Shown: one piece after another, positions 26,183 through 34,551 of the stretch
Layout of the letters: each line of letters opens with the position of its first letter
Position numbering within the stretch: the stretch's first letter is position 1
Assembly: GCA_016209325.1 (NCBI GenBank)
Contig: JACQWJ010000011.1
Coordinates: forward strand, 1-34,551
Direction of reading: 5' to 3'
Length of the DNA stretch: 34,551 nt
DNA from: Candidatus Uhrbacteria bacterium
GTDB lineage: Bacteria; Patescibacteriota; Patescibacteriia; UBA9934; GWF2-40-263
Position numbers and translations under genes: made by a program
The notes under the pieces: generated by a model
What the model saw: the letters and a program-made list of their open reading frames with translations, nothing else
What the model was told of the DNA's origin: nothing
Databases searched by the model: none

Positions 26183-26226
26183 GGGATCCCGCGTTTTTGG
26201 TAAAAGGGAGAAAAGGAGTATTCTCT

Positions 26227-26757
26227 ATGCTGAACTACAGCGAAAAATTCAAAAATTTGGTCTTGTACATCCTTTCCCATGACTCATATCGGGAGGGTGG
26301 ACTGAAAAAGCTCAACAAGATGCTTTATTTTATCGACTTCTACTTTTACAAGGACCAAGAGCGCTTTATTTCCGATGTGGCGTACGCCAAGGCGGATATG
26401 GGACCCGTTGTGGATGGCTATCAGGAAATCTTTTCAAAGATGATGACAGACGGAGTGTTGAAAAAGCATGCGAACAGGTCGGGTATCCTTGAGGCTAACG
26501 TTCCGTACGACATTGCTTCGTTCGCCCCCGAAGAAATCGAACATATACGAAATGTCCTGGATGCGTATGGAAAGTTGTCTTCGACGATTCTTGAAACAAT
26601 CTCACACCAACAGCAGCCATGGCTTCTGACCAAACAGATGGGAGACATCATCGACCCGGACCTGGCGCTTCTCATCGATAACGGTGAATCGGAGGAAGTG
26701 GACATCCATGATCCCAAGCTTACTTCCGAACTGATCGCTCTCGCCGACTCGGTGTGA
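26227..26757 (+). CDS. Panacea/SocA-like (DUF4065) antitoxin domain protein
   Basis: LVLYILSHDSYREGGLKKLNKMLYFIDFYFYKDQERFISDVAYAKADMGPVVDGYQEIFSKMMTDGVL matches the DUF4065 pattern (K-L-x-K-LLYF...PYGPV-like). Confidence 0.7.
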   Translation: MLNYSEKFKNLVLYILSHDSYREGGLKKLNKMLYFIDFYFYKDQERFISDVAYAKADMGPVVDGYQEIFSKMMTDGVLKKHANRSGILEANVPYDIASFAPEEIEHIRNVLDAYGKLSSTILETISHQQQPWLLTKQMGDIIDPDLALLIDNGESEEVDIHDPKLTSELIALADSV

Positions 26758-27141: not shown

Positions 27142-28716
27142 CTAAAGGTCCGTCCCCGAGTAGCTCAGGTTCAGCGACTTGTTGCAGAGCGGGAAGTCCG
27201 GGACGATGTTACCGGGACCGAGCTCTCCGAAGAGGGCCCAGTTGCAGAAGGAGGGGTCGCGGGGGAAGCAGCGGTCGATCTTGCCGTCCTTGATGCGAAC
27301 GATCGTCAGGATCTCGCCGCGCCAGGACTCGACGGCGCCGAGCGCCATACCGTCCCGCGGCTGACAGTCCATTCGAAGGAAGCCATCGGCCGAGAGCATG
27401 GGTAGGAGCTTCTGAATCACCTGCTCCGTGGTCTGCAGTTCCTCGACGCGCATGCGGTAGCGCGCATAGACGTCTCCCGCCTTCTGGGTGACCACGCGCG
27501 GCAACAGCTCGGGCGCGAGATAGGCGGCGTACGGATGGTCGCGGCGCACGTCGCGGTCGAGGCCGGAGGCGCGGGCCGGGAGTCCCAGCGCGCCGTAGGC
27601 TTTGGCCGTCTCGAGCGGGAGCACGCCGGTGGTCTCCAGGCGCTCGTGGAGGCCGTCGGAGACTAGGAACACCTTGAGGAGGGCGTGCATTTCGGCGCAG
27701 ACCGAGGCGACGGTCTTTTCGACGTCCACGCGCTCTTCGGACAACAGGGTCCGAGCCACGCCGCCCGGCACGATGACGCCGCGCCAGAAGCGGTTACCGA
27801 GCAGGCGGGCGGACAGACGGACCAGGTCCTCCTTCACGCGGAATCCCTGGGCGGCCGCGACGGAATACCCCGTTCCCATGCCAGCCATGTTCGAGAGATC
27901 ATGGATGTGCATCGTCAAACGCTCGAGCTCGTGCAACAGTGTGCGAACAAGTCGGGCCTGCTGCGGCACTTCCGCGTCGCAGAGCTTCTCCACGGCCAGG
28001 CAGAAGGCGAGAGCGTGCGAGGGGCTCATGTCGTCCGACACGCGCTCGATGAACGGCATGGCCTCGTCGGGAGTCCTCCCTTCCAGGAGCTTCTCCACGC
28101 CCTTGTGGGTGAAGAACAGCTTGCCTTCGAGCGTGATGATGCGCTCGCCAGCCACGTTGAAGCGGAAGTGTCCCGGCTCGATGATCCCCGCGTGGATGGG
28201 GCCGACGGGAATCTCATAGACCCCCTCCCCCGCCACGTGGTGCATGGGGTACGGCACGTCGTCGTGCGAGAGCTTCGCGTCCCACGCGAAGTCCTTGCGG
28301 AGCGGATGCGTTCCGAGGGGGACGTTCTCGTGATGGACCAGGCGGCGGGGGTCGGGATGGCCCGCGGGCGTCACGCCGAACATGTCGGACAGGAGGCGTT
28401 CATACCAGTGAGCGGCCATGACGGAGCTCGTGACAGAAGGATAGGCAGGGTCGCTTTCCGGAACCTCGGTGGAAACGACGAGCCACTCGTGCGCTTCGTC
28501 AAGGGACAGAACGACGTGGATGCCGAATCCTTTCCTTTCTCTGCGATCATCGGTGCCGAACAGAAGGGAGAGTGGAAGGTTGTGCTCATGGACGAGCACA
28601 TGGACGAGCGGCGCGAACGCTTCCCGCTCCACGCGGATCCAGGTGGTGTCGACCGAGGCGAAGGTAGGCTGGCGTCCGACAGCTTCCAAAACGGCATGCA
28701 TGGTCTTCATATTCAT
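27142..28716 (-). CDS. HyfG/HycE-like (NuoC-NuoD-like) large subunit lacking [NiFe]-coordinating cysteines
   Basis: PVGPIHAGIIEPGHFRFNVAGERI, FFTHKGVEKLLEG, IERVSDDMSPSHALAF (L1 position), FPLCNKSLNLSYSGTDL* (L2 position). ATGA overlap with the upstream gene. Confidence 0.88.
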   Translation of the reverse strand: MNMKTMHAVLEAVGRQPTFASVDTTWIRVEREAFAPLVHVLVHEHNLPLSLLFGTDDRRERKGFGIHVVLSLDEAHEWLVVSTEVPESDPAYPSVTSSVMAAHWYERLLSDMFGVTPAGHPDPRRLVHHENVPLGTHPLRKDFAWDAKLSHDDVPYPMHHVAGEGVYEIPVGPIHAGIIEPGHFRFNVAGERIITLEGKLFFTHKGVEKLLEGRTPDEAMPFIERVSDDMSPSHALAFCLAVEKLCDAEVPQQARLVRTLLHELERLTMHIHDLSNMAGMGTGYSVAAAQGFRVKEDLVRLSARLLGNRFWRGVIVPGGVARTLLSEERVDVEKTVASVCAEMHALLKVFLVSDGLHERLETTGVLPLETAKAYGALGLPARASGLDRDVRRDHPYAAYLAPELLPRVVTQKAGDVYARYRMRVEELQTTEQVIQKLLPMLSADGFLRMDCQPRDGMALGAVESWRGEILTIVRIKDGKIDRCFPRDPSFCNWALFGELGPGNIVPDFPLCNKSLNLSYSGTDL

Positions 28717-30209
28717 AGAGCAACAGAGGAAATGGACTGAGCAACGCGCGTCGCGAATGCGAGGCCCGATGGAAGGAGGAAAAAGACGCCGGCGGCGCCG
28801 AGGAGTGCGAGCTCGCCCGCCATGACGGCATGAGTGAGGGTCCACGGCTCGCGGACCGACTCCACCGCGGGAGGCACTTCCGTGGCGGCGGGCGCGCCCT
28901 CAAACAGGAGGGCAAGGGTATGGCGCATCATTCCGACCGCGACCAGGCTCAAGCCAAGCAGGACGATGAGCGTCGAAACCAGGTGCGTGTTGATGCCGTA
29001 GCCGACCATGAGGTATTCGCTCGCAAACAGGGTCGAACCAGGCATGGCTAGGATACCGAGGATGGCGAGGAGAAACAGGACGGCCGTACGCGGAGCGTGC
29101 GTGAACACCGCCGGAAGATGGTCGAGCTTGGTGGTCTTCCAGCGGAGCAGAATCTCCCCCGCACCGAAGAAGAGGGCGGACTTGGCGAGCGTATGGCCCA
29201 CCATATGCATGACGGCTGGCACAAGCCCAAGGGGACCAAGACCGACGGAGAAGGCGAGGAGCCCCATGTGCTCGATGCTTGAGTAGGCCAGCATGCGCTT
29301 GTAGTTGCGCTGGATGAGCAGGATGAAGCCGGGCAGGAGCACTGAGAGGATGCCGAAGACGAGGAAGAACTTCTCCGTCCATTCCGTGCCGCCAAGCGCC
29401 AGGTCGGTGACGCCCTTGAAGCGGAGGATCGTCACGAACGCCACGTTCAGGAGGATGCCCGACAGCATGGCGGAAATCGGGGAGGGCGTCTTGCTGTGGG
29501 CGTCCGGCAACCAGGTGTGGAGGGGGACGAACCCAACCTTCGTGCCAATGCCGACAAACACGAAGACGAAGGCCCAGCGCATGATGTCTGGAGACAGGGA
29601 GGAGGCGTGCATTCGGAGTGTGTCGAGGTAGAGGAAGTCGGCGTGCTGCAGCCCTCCTACGGCCGCCGCGTGACCAACCATGAGGATGCCCACAAGGCCG
29701 AGCGCGATACCAGTCGAGCAAAGCAGGATGTACTTCCACGCGGCCTCAAGGGCACCATCCTTGGCGTAAAAAGCCACGAGACAGGTCGTTGCGAGCGTGG
29801 TAGCTTCGAGCCCGAACCAGATGACGCCGAGGTGGTTGGCGAGCGCGGTCACGAGCATCGCGAACGCGAACAGGTGCATCATGACGTAGTAGAGGCGGAC
29901 CTGACGGTCCGTGACGAGCCTCTCATGGCGCTCGTGGCCGAGGTAGCGGACGCTGACGACGGCGGTCGCGAGGTAAACGAGGACAATAAGCGACGCGACG
30001 AGGGCGGACATGGGGTCGACAAACCAAATTCCCAAGGACCGCATCTCGACGCGACCCAGGAGGACCGGGAAGGCGGTCGTCCAGACGAATCCGGCCGCCA
30101 CGGAGGCCGCGAGAACACCAAGACCGCGAACAGCCTTAACCGGCACGACGGGCAGCCAGGAGAAGAGGGGTGTCGCAAGCAGGGCGAGAAACGCAAGCGT
30201 CAAATGCAT
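28713..30209 (-). CDS. HyfF-like antiporter-type membrane subunit
   Basis: NuoL/M/N-like core: WFGLEATTLATTCLVAFYAKDGALEAAWKY, GIGTKVGFVPLHTWLPDAHSKTPSPISAMLSGILLNVAF, NYKRMLAYSSIEHMGLLAFSVG. Confidence 0.88.
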   Translation of the reverse strand: MHLTLAFLALLATPLFSWLPVVPVKAVRGLGVLAASVAAGFVWTTAFPVLLGRVEMRSLGIWFVDPMSALVASLIVLVYLATAVVSVRYLGHERHERLVTDRQVRLYYVMMHLFAFAMLVTALANHLGVIWFGLEATTLATTCLVAFYAKDGALEAAWKYILLCSTGIALGLVGILMVGHAAAVGGLQHADFLYLDTLRMHASSLSPDIMRWAFVFVFVGIGTKVGFVPLHTWLPDAHSKTPSPISAMLSGILLNVAFVTILRFKGVTDLALGGTEWTEKFFLVFGILSVLLPGFILLIQRNYKRMLAYSSIEHMGLLAFSVGLGPLGLVPAVMHMVGHTLAKSALFFGAGEILLRWKTTKLDHLPAVFTHAPRTAVLFLLAILGILAMPGSTLFASEYLMVGYGINTHLVSTLIVLLGLSLVAVGMMRHTLALLFEGAPAATEVPPAVESVREPWTLTHAVMAGELALLGAAGVFFLLPSGLAFATRVAQSISSVAL

Positions 30210-30212
30210 ACT

Positions 30213-30869
30213 TTAGTCAGTCAATTCGCGAAGGCTGGCCGTGTCGGACGTGCCGTAGAGCTCCTGTACCTTGTGGCTGAGGAGAGCCATCATGCTGACC
30301 GCGAGGAGCACGATCGAGAAGATGCCCACCTCGATCGCGACGGGGATCACGACGATCGTTGCGAGCGAAAAGGCGGCGATTCCGTTCTCGATGAACAGGA
30401 ACCCCACCATCTGCGAGAAAACATCCCGGCGAAGGACCATCATGAGGATACCCGCGAAGGCCACGGCGATCGAGAGGTAGAGGACATGCGCGGAGGCAGC
30501 CGAGGCAGCGAAGGGCAGGTGCTGGATGAGAAGGGCGGTCACGAGCAGGGCCGCGACGGTGACGAACAGACTGGGCGCTGCGCGCAGGGAGGACTGCAGG
30601 CGTTCGGAAGCACCCGAGCGGCGGATCGCGTTCGTAAGCAGCGCCGGGATGACCAATCCTTTGACGAACAGCGTCCCGAGCGCAAGGGGGTACAGATGTC
30701 CGGACGCATCCCTGACGGCAAAACTGAAGATCAGGAGGGCGAGCGCGATTGAGGAGCAGGCATACAGGCGAAGCAGGCTCTTGACGCGGAAGGTGGGCAT
30801 GGCGAGAACCGAGGCAAAGAGAAAGACAACGGCAAACAGGGGCTCGAGGACCGCAAGTGTGGCTATCAT
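30213..30869 (-). CDS. HyfE-like (NuoK-like) membrane subunit
   Basis: Polytopic; MVGFLFIENGIAAFSLATIV is typical; ATGA overlap with hyfC-like. Confidence 0.8.
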   Translation of the reverse strand: MIATLAVLEPLFAVVFLFASVLAMPTFRVKSLLRLYACSSIALALLIFSFAVRDASGHLYPLALGTLFVKGLVIPALLTNAIRRSGASERLQSSLRAAPSLFVTVAALLVTALLIQHLPFAASAASAHVLYLSIAVAFAGILMMVLRRDVFSQMVGFLFIENGIAAFSLATIVVIPVAIEVGIFSIVLLAVSMMALLSHKVQELYGTSDTASLRELTD

Positions 30870-31807
30870 AGGAAGAGGGTGAGCAGGAGTCCGGCCAACG
30901 CGATCACGAACGCGAGGGACAGGTATTCCTGCATGCGGTAAAAGCGCATCTTCACGATCGAGGTCTCGAGCAGGGCGAGGAGGAACGAGCCCAGGAGGAG
31001 CTTCAGGAAGGTTCCTACGAGAACCGCGGCCGTCGCTCCCGTCTGCCATGCGCTGGGATGGAAGAGAAATGACGTCGGAACTGTGAAGTTGGCAAGCAGG
31101 AGAAGGAACACTGTCAGACGCAGGGCGGAGGCGTATTCGACCATTGCAAGGTACGGGCCCGAGTACTCGAGCACCATGGCCTCGTGGACCATCGTGAGTT
31201 CGAGGTGTGTCGCCGGATTGTCGACCGGATAGCGCGCGTTTTCGGCAAGGGCGATCAGGACGAGCGCGATCAGGCTGAAAAGGAGCGCGGGTGTAACGAG
31301 GAGCGCCGCGCCTCCGGTCTGGACCATGCCGTCGATGGTGGCATGGCCGCTCGCGACCGCAAAGGCGGCAAAGACGGCAAACACGGCCGGCTCGACCAGG
31401 GATGCAATCGTCATCTCGCGGCTCGATCCCATGCCGCCAAAGGCACTCGCGCTATCGAGTCCTCCCAGTACGAGAAAAACCGAGCCTAACGCGAGGACGC
31501 CGGCTACCAGCATGAAATGACTGTAAGCGGACAGAGCGCTCCCCGTCGAGACGAGCGGTAGGATGAGGACGAGAAAGACGCCCGTGGCGCACACGACGAA
31601 CGGCACGAGGCGAAATACCCAGGAGGTACTCTCGGAAATTACCATCTCACGGCGGAGCATGGTGGCCAGGGCAACATACGGAAGCCAGGGGACGGCTCCC
31701 TGCCGACCTTGGAGGCGCGCCTTGAACCAACGTACCAGGCCGACCGTAAGCGGGGCGAGGCCGAGGACGAGAACTGCTTGGATCACAGTCAAAAGAAGAG
31801 GGCTCAT
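30866..31807 (-). CDS. HyfC-like (NuoH-like) membrane subunit
   Basis: ALAENARYPVDNPATHLELTMVHEAMVLEYSGPYLAMVEYA; ATGA overlap with hyfB-like. Confidence 0.9.
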   Translation of the reverse strand: MSPLLLTVIQAVLVLGLAPLTVGLVRWFKARLQGRQGAVPWLPYVALATMLRREMVISESTSWVFRLVPFVVCATGVFLVLILPLVSTGSALSAYSHFMLVAGVLALGSVFLVLGGLDSASAFGGMGSSREMTIASLVEPAVFAVFAAFAVASGHATIDGMVQTGGAALLVTPALLFSLIALVLIALAENARYPVDNPATHLELTMVHEAMVLEYSGPYLAMVEYASALRLTVFLLLLANFTVPTSFLFHPSAWQTGATAAVLVGTFLKLLLGSFLLALLETSIVKMRFYRMQEYLSLAFVIALAGLLLTLFL

Positions 31808-33819
31808 AGGGCGATAACCAAGGTCACAAGCAAAGCCAGGAAGATGAACGCAACGTACAACTGGACCGATCCACTCTGCACGCGTCGAACAATGGAAGCC
31901 GCACGCAGACATGTCCGCGCGATCGGAAGGTAGCCATAATCCATCCAGACAGAACGTAGATTCAAAAAAAGTTCACGGCGACAAATCCAGGGATTGGTGG
32001 CAACGACCGGGATCGCGACGACGGTGTTTTTGGTGCGCAGCAAGAAGCGGAAGAAAAAACGGATCGGCGCAGAAAACGCCGTCGCTGTGTACTCCATGCT
32101 GGCGTCAATCGGCTGCCCGCAGTTCCAGGTGTGATAGGAGCGCTCGCGCTTGGCGTCGGAAAGCAGACGACGCAGCAGGAATACGAGTCCGAGGCATGCC
32201 AACAGTCCGAGGAATACAGCGGCCGGAACAACCAAACTCGCATCCGGGCGGATACCGACGATTTCGATTGCTGGCAGACGGTTGGCCGCGCTCACCAGGT
32301 CTTTTCCGCCGACCAGCGACACGAGGGCCGGGGCGAATACGCCCATCCACGCGAGAAGTAGGGCCAAAAGAAGGATGGGAGCGTTCATGGAGGCAGGCGG
32401 CTCTACGGCCTTCTCGGCCGCTTCACTCCGGGGAGCGCCAAGGGTCGCGATGCCGAACAGCTTGACCATGGCGAAGATGGCCAGGGCGCTTGCGAGAACC
32501 ACCGCGAACAGCACGAGCACGAGGACACCGGTCACAGCTCCATCCGTGGGAGCCGCCAGAGATTGCACCAGACTCTGCAGGAACATCCATTCCCCGTAGA
32601 AGGGGCCAAAGGGCGGCAACGCGGCCGCGGACAACGCGAGAACTAGGAAGGCTCCAGAAAGAAGCGGCATACGCTTGGCCAGACCTCCCATGCGCTCAAG
32701 GCTCCGAGTGCCCGTCGCGTGCACGATGGCCCCGGCCGCCAGAAAGAGTCCCGACTTGAAAAGCGCGTGGCTGACGCAGTGAAAAACGGCGGCCAGGAGC
32801 GCGACCACTAGCAACCCCGGAAGGCGGTTGGCGAAAGCGTACGCACCGACACCAATCATAGTGAAGATGATGCCGATGTTCTCGATACTGCTGAACGCAA
32901 GCACACGCTTGATGTCGCGCTCGATCACCGCGTACAAGGCTCCGAAGATGGCGGACGCAAGACCCAGGCCAATGATGACCAGTCCGAAGGTGGCCGGCAG
33001 CGAGGGAATAAGGAAGAGCATCATGCGCAGGAATCCGTACACCGCGACCTTCAACATGACCCCCGACATGAGGGCCGAAATGTGGCTTGGAGCTTGCGGG
33101 TGAGCCTCCGGAAGCCAGGCGTGGAACGGCACGAGGCCCGCCTTCGATCCGAAGCCGAAGAGGAAAAGAAAGAAGGTCAGCGCGAGCGCGGGAGCCGGAA
33201 TGACCTGGGCTGAAAACGCCAGCGTTCGAAAATCAGCCAGAATCGTTCCTTGTGCCAGCACAAAGAAGCCAGTAAGGATGGCGGCCGCGCCGAGATGCGT
33301 CATCACGAAGTAGAACAGGGCGGCCTTTATCGAAGCTGGCTTGCGGTCGGCCATGACAAGGAAGAACGAGGTGATGGACATGAGCTCCCAGAACGCCATG
33401 AATCCGAGGACGTTCGTGGAAAGCAGTACCCCTTGCATGCCAAGGACGAACAGCGCAGTGGCCGCATTCAGGCTCGCAATGTGATAGCCCTCATGGCTCT
33501 GACGCACATACGCGATGGCATATACGGAGCACAGACAGGACACGAGCCCGACGATGGCGAAGAAGATCGCGGAAAACACGTCGAGCGCGAAGGTCATTCC
33601 GAAGAAAAGTCGGACCGAGGCGATCTCAAGCACCTCAAAGTCCTGGACGACGAAGGCGATGCTCGCCACGGCGCCGACGGCGCCCGAGAAAGCGAGGAGG
33701 ATATGGGCAAAATGATGGGCGCGGACACCGAGCAGTGCGACCAGGGCCGCAAAAACGGTGCCGGCGAGACTGGCAAGGATCGCGAACGAAAGGAAGGCGG
33801 GATCCATAGGCATCATCAT
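31804..33819 (-). CDS. HyfB-like (NuoL-like) antiporter-type membrane subunit
   Basis: FMAFWELMSITSFFLV, FGFGSKAGLVPFHAWLPEAHPQAPSHISALMSGVMLKVAVYGFLR, IERDIKRVLAFSSIENIGIIF; C-terminal extension. Confidence 0.92.
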   Translation of the reverse strand: MMMPMDPAFLSFAILASLAGTVFAALVALLGVRAHHFAHILLAFSGAVGAVASIAFVVQDFEVLEIASVRLFFGMTFALDVFSAIFFAIVGLVSCLCSVYAIAYVRQSHEGYHIASLNAATALFVLGMQGVLLSTNVLGFMAFWELMSITSFFLVMADRKPASIKAALFYFVMTHLGAAAILTGFFVLAQGTILADFRTLAFSAQVIPAPALALTFFLFLFGFGSKAGLVPFHAWLPEAHPQAPSHISALMSGVMLKVAVYGFLRMMLFLIPSLPATFGLVIIGLGLASAIFGALYAVIERDIKRVLAFSSIENIGIIFTMIGVGAYAFANRLPGLLVVALLAAVFHCVSHALFKSGLFLAAGAIVHATGTRSLERMGGLAKRMPLLSGAFLVLALSAAALPPFGPFYGEWMFLQSLVQSLAAPTDGAVTGVLVLVLFAVVLASALAIFAMVKLFGIATLGAPRSEAAEKAVEPPASMNAPILLLALLLAWMGVFAPALVSLVGGKDLVSAANRLPAIEIVGIRPDASLVVPAAVFLGLLACLGLVFLLRRLLSDAKRERSYHTWNCGQPIDASMEYTATAFSAPIRFFFRFLLRTKNTVVAIPVVATNPWICRRELFLNLRSVWMDYGYLPIARTCLRAASIVRRVQSGSVQLYVAFIFLALLVTLVIAL

Positions 33820-33821
33820 AT

Positions 33822-34358
33822 TTAGACACGGGACTGGCTCAGCGCGTGGAGCACCCCCTGAAGGATAGCGGTCGGCGTCGGGGGGTCTCCTGGAATGCGC
33901 ACGTGGACGGGAATAACGGATTCGACAGGTCCAACGACGGCGTACGAGTCCTTCCAGATGCCGCCTGTGCACGCGCCGTCGCCCACGGCCACCACCATGC
34001 AGGGCTGGGGCGCGGCTTCGTAGGTGGTCTTCACCGCGCGCTCAAGGTTGCGCGTCACGGGACCCGACACGAACAGCATGTCGGCATGCCGCGGCGAGGC
34101 CACGAAACTGAGCCCGAACCGGTCGATGTCGTAATAGGCATTGTTGAGCGCCGTCAGCTCAATCTCTTCCCCGTTCGCAGATCCTCCGTCTACCGCCCGA
34201 ATCCGCAGCGAGCGCCCTCCATACAGACGACGCACAACAGTCTTCAGTTCCTCCCCAACCGCCTCAAGCGAGGCGTCCTTCGGATTGACAAACCGTTCCT
34301 TCGCTTCGGTCACCCGAGGCCCCAGAAACAGCAATCGCCACAGTTCTGCAAGATACAT
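33822..34358 (-). CDS. HyfI/HycG-like (NuoB-like) small subunit lacking the proximal [4Fe-4S] cysteines
   Basis: VDGGSANGEEIEL, ASPRHADMLFVSGPVTRNLERAVKTTYEAAPQPCMVVAVGDGACTGGIW, VIPVHVRIPGDPPTPTAILQGVLHAL. Confidence 0.88.
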   Translation of the reverse strand: MYLAELWRLLFLGPRVTEAKERFVNPKDASLEAVGEELKTVVRRLYGGRSLRIRAVDGGSANGEEIELTALNNAYYDIDRFGLSFVASPRHADMLFVSGPVTRNLERAVKTTYEAAPQPCMVVAVGDGACTGGIWKDSYAVVGPVESVIPVHVRIPGDPPTPTAILQGVLHALSQSRV

Positions 34359-34438: not shown

Positions 34439-34442
34439 TAGA

Positions 34443-34477
34443 AAAAACAAGCCTCTCAGAAAGAAAGGCTTGTTTTT
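34443..34477. terminator. bidirectional terminator hairpin
   Basis: AAAAACAAGCCT-N11-AGGCTTGTTTTT, perfect 12-bp stem. Confidence 0.85.
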
Positions 34478-34488
34478 GTGTGGGAGCA

Positions 34489-34551
34489 TCAAGAACGGAC
34501 CCCTTTTACCTCCAGTTCATGGCTTCTCCGAATGAGTACCAGACTTGGATC
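34489..34551 (-). CDS. possible C-terminal end of a CDS running in from the right edge (...DPSLVLIRRSHELEVKGVRS*)
   Basis: Minus frame open from the window edge to TGA at 34489-34491, then the terminator at 34443-34477. Another frame (...IQVWYSFGEAMNWR*) is also open, so the frame is uncertain. Confidence 0.25.
   Translation of the reverse strand, partial: DPSLVLIRRSHELEVKGVRS

Follow-up and report, generated by a model that had tools for sequence, protein, structure and literature searches.

A complex I-related Ehr complex lacking proximal-cluster ligands and encoded beside the ATP synthase in Candidate Phyla Radiation bacteria

It has long been debated how complex I links the redox chemistry of its soluble arm to ion channels that lie far from it. 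Among the relatives of complex I are the energy-converting hydrogenase-related complexes (Ehr), which are described as lacking NiFe ligands and as either of unknown function or possibly linked to formate dehydrogenase (PMC6349859, PMC10284858, PMC7894505). In the main text of Jaffe et al. (2020, PMC7304191), Ehr from the Candidate Phyla Radiation (CPR) are monophyletic within Ehr by a large-subunit tree and are described, in the context of large subunits, as lacking metal-cofactor-binding cysteines. The loss of NiFe ligands in CPR Ehr is thus already published. We found no report of an Ehr small subunit without its cluster, or of a linkage between Ehr and ATP synthase, in a literature search that covered main texts other than the founding Ehr paper (Marreiros 2013), and to that extent both are new here.

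We analysed a stretch of 34,551 nucleotides from Candidatus Uhrbacteria bacterium (contig JACQWJ010000011.1), referred to as the window. At 33822..34358 its minus strand encodes an Ehr small subunit (NuoB/HycG/EhrS-like) of 178 aa, in an open reading frame that runs from an ATG at 34358 to a TAA without a frameshift. The protein matches Pfam Oxidored_q6 (E=9.1e-25; 87.3 bits, where the cut-off is 27), and in alignments to the solved structures of HycG (7z0s_G) and MbhJ (6cfw_J) the positions of the four [4Fe-4S] ligands are occupied by A61, E64, G128 and D158. The proximal cluster usual in cluster-bearing Ehr small subunits therefore has none of its ligands here, and the ligands of the N2 cluster of respiratory complex I (NuoB/NuoD) are absent from the protein. 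AlphaFold2 nevertheless predicts a confident NuoB fold (mean pLDDT 94.5, pTM 0.84); among the structural matches of the model HycG is nearest by E-value, MbhJ fits with an rmsd of 2.1 and a TMt of 0.87, and NuoB homologues from complex I are also found. The initial annotation had described a NuoB/HycG-like small subunit that has lost all four proximal-cluster ligands, keeps the surrounding framework and does not owe the changes to a frameshift; the alignments, the Pfam match with the predicted fold, and the intact reading frame bear this out in turn, and the motifs and coordinates it quoted are exact.

The small subunit gene heads a minus-strand operon of six genes and is followed in the order B-C-E-F-large, with 4-base overlaps at three of the junctions. 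A HyfB/NuoL-like antiporter subunit of 671 aa, its start read from the sequence, lies at 31804..33819 (Proton_antipo_M, E=3.3e-53; best NCBIfam match hydrogenase 4 subunit B, E=5.8e-156) and a HyfC/NuoH-like membrane subunit of 313 aa at 30866..31807 (NADHdh, E=9.1e-24), the latter sharing an ATGA overlap with the gene before it, as does the HyfE-like membrane subunit of 218 aa at 30213..30869, whose match to NCBIfam PRK11492 (hydrogenase 4 membrane subunit, E=4.2e-20) scores below that model's curated cut-off. These are followed by a HyfF/NuoN-like antiporter subunit of 498 aa at 28713..30209 (Proton_antipo_M, E=3e-45; hydrogenase 4 subunit F, E=2.8e-97) and by the large subunit (NuoCD/HycE-like, 524 aa) at 27142..28716 (Complex1_49kDa, E=2.2e-32; Complex1_30kDa, E=9.7e-22). 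CPR, Rokubacteria and some others have the order small-B-C-E-F-large, whereas in Proteobacteria and methanogens the small subunit gene comes last (B-C-E-F-large-small). Beside the operon in the window, on the opposite strand, a SocA/Panacea-domain protein, a possible antitoxin, is encoded at 26197-26757. In other loci the HyfC/NuoH-like and HyfE/NuoK-like genes look fused (L065:8874-10556, about 560 aa, NADHdh plus Oxidored_q2, with ORFs of similar length in L064, L071 and L077); an Altiarchaeales locus has, next to its cluster-less Ehr operon, another set of B-C-E-F genes (L103:14221-19259), which may be a further copy truncated where the locus ends; and in methanotroph-like genomes a SulP-type (Sulfate_transp) transporter gene lies near the cluster-bearing Ehr (L067:847-2790, with similar ORFs in L081, L099, L115 and L116).

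The large subunit aligns to HycE (7z0s_E) over its full length and lacks all four NiFe cysteines (RVSDDMS..., ...NLSYSGTDL), with S-D... and S..G at their positions, so it falls outside the group 4 [NiFe] hydrogenases. The same cysteines are missing from the large subunit of every Ehr that we examined, cluster-bearing or not, which identifies the family as Ehr, and the window has the features expected of one: a group 4-like large subunit without the two CxxC NiFe motifs and a membrane module of HyfB/HyfF, HyfC/NuoH and HyfE-like proteins. At the first CxxC the Ehr large subunits carry SGD (SDD in the window) and at the second DFPLxNKSxxxSYSGxD, and these motifs are alike with and without the small-subunit cluster, so that the cluster looks dispensable for the role of Ehr. 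A search of the ORFs with Pfam found no ferredoxin-like subunit in the six-gene operon. Since the ligands are gone from both soluble subunits as well, we can assign none of the known redox cofactors to the complex of the window, and electron transfer cannot be its driver by any known route.

The complex might still be redox-driven if a partner passed electrons or hydride straight to the non-metal SGD / NKSxxxSYSGxD site in the large subunit, without use of the small-subunit cluster, and if this drove pumping as in other Ehr and complex I. That site is near-invariant in cluster-bearing and cluster-less Ehr, and coupling of Ehr to formate dehydrogenase is suspected in other lineages (PMC6349859). 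However, the operon and its conserved neighbourhood contain no oxidoreductase, ferredoxin or NuoEF-like gene, the small-subunit contacts at the usual point of electron entry are ligand-free, and a search of the 89%-complete genome gave no match for NuoF-type proteins (Complex1_51K). COX1 and the maturation protein HypD gave no match there either; these absences are provisional at this completeness. The NADH dehydrogenase module (NuoEFG) that marks complex I is correspondingly lacking its NuoF-type component in this genome, where the only Proton_antipo_M proteins are the two of the Ehr operon. We regard direct delivery of electrons to the large subunit as unlikely.

A scan of public genomes gave at least 579 confirmed relatives, of which the best 80 were used, and a pooled comparison comprised 68 cluster-less and 52 cluster-bearing small subunits. 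None of the 68 keeps more than one cluster ligand. Ligand 1 is T, D, S or A, ligand 3 is D, G, A or T, and ligand 4 is D, N or E in all 68, so that cysteine never occurs at these three positions; at ligand 2 (E, C, T, A or P) it persists in 26 members, which have thus lost three of the four ligands where the window has lost all of them. Cluster-bearing Ehr have cysteine at each position in 51-52 of 52 sequences and at all four in 51, and neither set includes a two-cysteine intermediate. The replacements are therefore kept in relatives, and the ligand loss is fixed, the nearest relatives also being without the cysteines. The initial annotation had left room for an alternative four-ligand site and had pointed to two remaining cysteines, C120 (CMVV) and C130 (GAC). 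Column counts over the cluster-less members rule out another conserved set of four cysteines that could hold a cluster, and cysteine occurs at these two positions in 34% and 43% of them, respectively. One divergent cluster-less member (L146, genome G583) is 38% identical, has D/A/D/N at the ligand positions and lies next to an operon in the order large-F-E-C-B on the minus strand.

The acidic character of the replacements raises the possibility that E64, D158 and D127, joined by C130 in the clade of the window, bind a mononuclear divalent metal or relay protons where the cluster used to be. The invariably Asp, Asn or Glu at ligand 4, the Glu at ligand 2 in 32/68, the Asp at ligand 3 in 35/68 and a nearly invariant Asp127 would all suit such a site. 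Yet the combinations differ by clade (TEGD, TCDD, DCDN, DTDN) and none is common to all, the cysteines at the positions of C120 and C130 are clade-limited, and Asp127 is unspecific, being common in cluster-bearing Ehr too (GDC). A re-purposed site of this kind seems to us improbable as the explanation, and it is compatible with reading the complex as an ion translocator.

Cluster-less members are mostly CPR (among them Moranbacteria, Magasanikbacteria, Staskawiczbacteria, Kaiserbacteria, Adlerbacteria and Levybacteria); outside CPR they occur in Methanosarcina and Methanoregula MAGs, one Altiarchaeales MAG and Chloroflexi/Dehalococcoidales MAGs. The trait is therefore a mark of a broad group and not of one genome. 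In concatenated trees of HyfB, HyfC, HyfF and the large subunit the cluster-less members fall into three groups and the CPR members into two, which suggests two or three losses of the cluster, although a single loss is not rejected: AU tests allow one clade of CPR members (p=0.467) and one clade of all cluster-less members (p=0.111). Two loci recorded as Syntrophus and Actinomycetes (L056 and L068) have their Ehr inside the CPR group, and these contigs may therefore be misbinned.

Patchy distribution might be taken to indicate an Ehr that was useful in the past and has been decaying since its chemistry was lost: the gene is present in 15/73 genomes and 8/34 genera of the window's order, is missing from one genome of the same genus, and finds matches in 27/381 sampled genomes of the class and 15/380 of the phylum, a few of which are ordinary cysteine-bearing homologues. 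Several observations argue strongly against such decay. The six-gene operon is intact, with its ATGA overlaps. No other protein of the operon is as well conserved as the small subunit, which shows 70-80% identity to three kin against 33-64% for the other subunits, with dN of 0.17-0.26; only dN and identity are given because NG86 dS is saturated. The most conserved subunit is thus the one that has lost its cluster, and it is under strong purifying constraint without it. Across 23 CPR members, charged channel residues are conserved at 96-100% in the HyfB-like (E152, K233, H240, H247, K264, K311, H354, H358, K362, E417), HyfF-like (E135, E155, K159, K224, H339, K343) and HyfC-like (D123, E144, E194, D201, E208, E214, E229) subunits, and the same residues are usually also kept in archaeal and cluster-bearing Ehr. 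The membrane machine has thus been preserved whole where the redox chemistry is gone. We reject a decaying pseudogene on the conservation of channel residues and subunits, and the odds of a degenerate remnant seem to us very slim. An artefact of sequencing, assembly or binning would be conceivable for a MAG-derived genome in 37 contigs, but dozens of assemblies made independently in different projects show the same replacements, which rules out isolated mutation or assembly error and leaves this explanation with practically no weight.

Several lines of evidence associate the operon with the ATP synthase. In the window's order and in other families the operon immediately upstream of Ehr, in the same orientation, is that of an F-type ATP synthase. 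This is so in all 12 of the first-sampled loci of broader kin (L129-L140), in some of which a gap or a single small gene separates atpC from the small subunit. The same arrangement is found in L065, L071, L077 and L049, and with insertions in L050; in L061 the atp genes are downstream of Ehr. Among the 15 Ehr-bearing genomes of the order, there are 10 in which atpG and Ehr share a contig at a distance of 2-5 kb, and in G057 atpD, atpC and the small subunit are contiguous. Of the remainder, the window's genome (G000) is joined by a contig overlap, G023 has both loci at contig ends, G045 has them apart, and atpG was not found in G058. The overlap in the window's genome consists of 111 bp at 34441..34551 that are identical to bases 102-212, at the start of contig C22, and are present at no other place in this genome; C22 carries the F-type operon atpB-E-F-H-A-G-D-C on its minus strand, ending towards base 1 and in the same relative orientation as Ehr. 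Because the overlap is unique, the Ehr operon follows atpC here too, after one short ORF. This ORF, on the minus strand, spans the joint, and the two contigs (window 34441-34551 and G000:C22:1-571) differ before the overlap (C22:1-101), as at an assembly branch.

The linkage is strong in the window's clade and is not universal: most loci of clade B, together with L063 and L090, lack adjacent atp genes, and the examined flanks of the cluster-bearing Ehr loci contained none. Upstream of the small subunit, at 34442..34478 on the minus strand, a strong hairpin followed by a T run (-20.5 kcal/mol, z -6.57), absent from the output of a simple terminator scanner, is likely to act as an intrinsic terminator for the gene that precedes the operon. 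This favours the view of Ehr as a neighbour of atpC over that of a single transcript. F-type ATP synthase is present in 69/73 genomes of the order, other genes follow the atp operon in kin without Ehr, and the adjacency may partly be inherited gene order. Putative carbonic anhydrase genes (Pfam Pro_CA_2) lie after Ehr in three loci (L053:17286-18224, L065:14261-15205 and L077:17303-18283), and another lies near Ehr or ATP synthase genes at L153:8509-8928. Since a gene of this kind is also found after atpC in a same-genus genome without Ehr, it belongs to the locus and not to Ehr; we rejected it as an Ehr partner.

The most reasonable explanation of these observations, to which we give a probability of about 0.5, is that the locus encodes an Ehr-type relative of complex I in which neither redox site is left and which moves ions across the membrane, most likely as an Mrp-like H+/cation exchanger, using or feeding the H+ gradient of the adjacent F1Fo, with its soluble subunits serving as a structural or gating cap. 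Judged by eye against the Ilyobacter c subunit, the c subunit of the ATP synthase carries an Ala after its Glu and lacks a Gln at the position that Ilyobacter uses for Na+; it thus lacks the Na+-type ligand pattern, and the coupling ion that the two complexes would share is probably H+. F1Fo would either hydrolyse ATP and export H+ or make ATP from H+ influx, and the membrane arm of Ehr would, like Mrp, swap H+ for a second cation. The two soluble subunits would form a structural cap, a conformational or gating module on the entrance of the HyfC/NuoH-like channel. The data show that the cofactor ligands are absent, that the fold and the channel residues are kept under purifying selection and that the ATP synthase genes lie alongside; the exchange itself, the direction it takes, the ions it moves and gating by the soluble subunits are inferred. 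Two observations weigh against this explanation, namely that adjacency to the ATP synthase is not universal and that a strong terminator separates the atp and Ehr genes in the window. In addition, since Mrp works without a NuoB/NuoCD module, simple antiport leaves the strict conservation of that module unexplained.

More broadly, and tentatively, the family may represent a machine of the complex I superfamily without any electron-transfer cofactor, a six-subunit ion translocator that partners F1Fo in ultra-small bacteria and in which the redox module has become a cofactor-free gate. As a natural redox-dead variant, in which the redox sites are gone and strong selection maintains a core like NuoB/NuoD, a carboxylate path like that of NuoH and the antiporter channels, it separates the gating role proposed for the soluble arm from electron transfer. 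For fermentative CPR bacteria, where we found neither a further complex I nor a terminal oxidase, it is a concrete candidate for the management of ion gradients tied to the ATP synthase.

The CPR Ehr of Jaffe et al. (2020, PMC7304191) have the same group 4-related large subunit without NiFe cysteines; the main text of that paper describes no cluster-less small subunit, channel conservation or ATP-synthase neighbourhood, and it presents CPR Ehr as one clade where our concatenated tree gives the two groups noted above. The cluster-bearing Ehr of Proteobacteria, Nitrospirota and Rokubacteria, such as the six-gene locus of Rhizobium johnstonii pRL11 (RL_RS31230-31255), share with the window the same six genes, the NiFe-less large-subunit motifs and the membrane subunits, but their small subunit keeps CxxC...C...C (complete in 51/52) and their examined flanks carry no ATP synthase. 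Formate hydrogenlyase/Hyf and the Mbh group 4 hydrogenases (7z0s, 6cfw) have the same fold and subunit architecture, yet hold a NiFe site, a proximal cluster and ferredoxin-like subunits, none of which the window's complex has. Mrp Na+/H+ antiporters, whose models are among the matches, resemble it in their antiporter-type subunits of the complex I superfamily with conserved Lys and Glu, but they have no NuoB, NuoCD or NuoH-like parts, whereas the complex of the window has all three.
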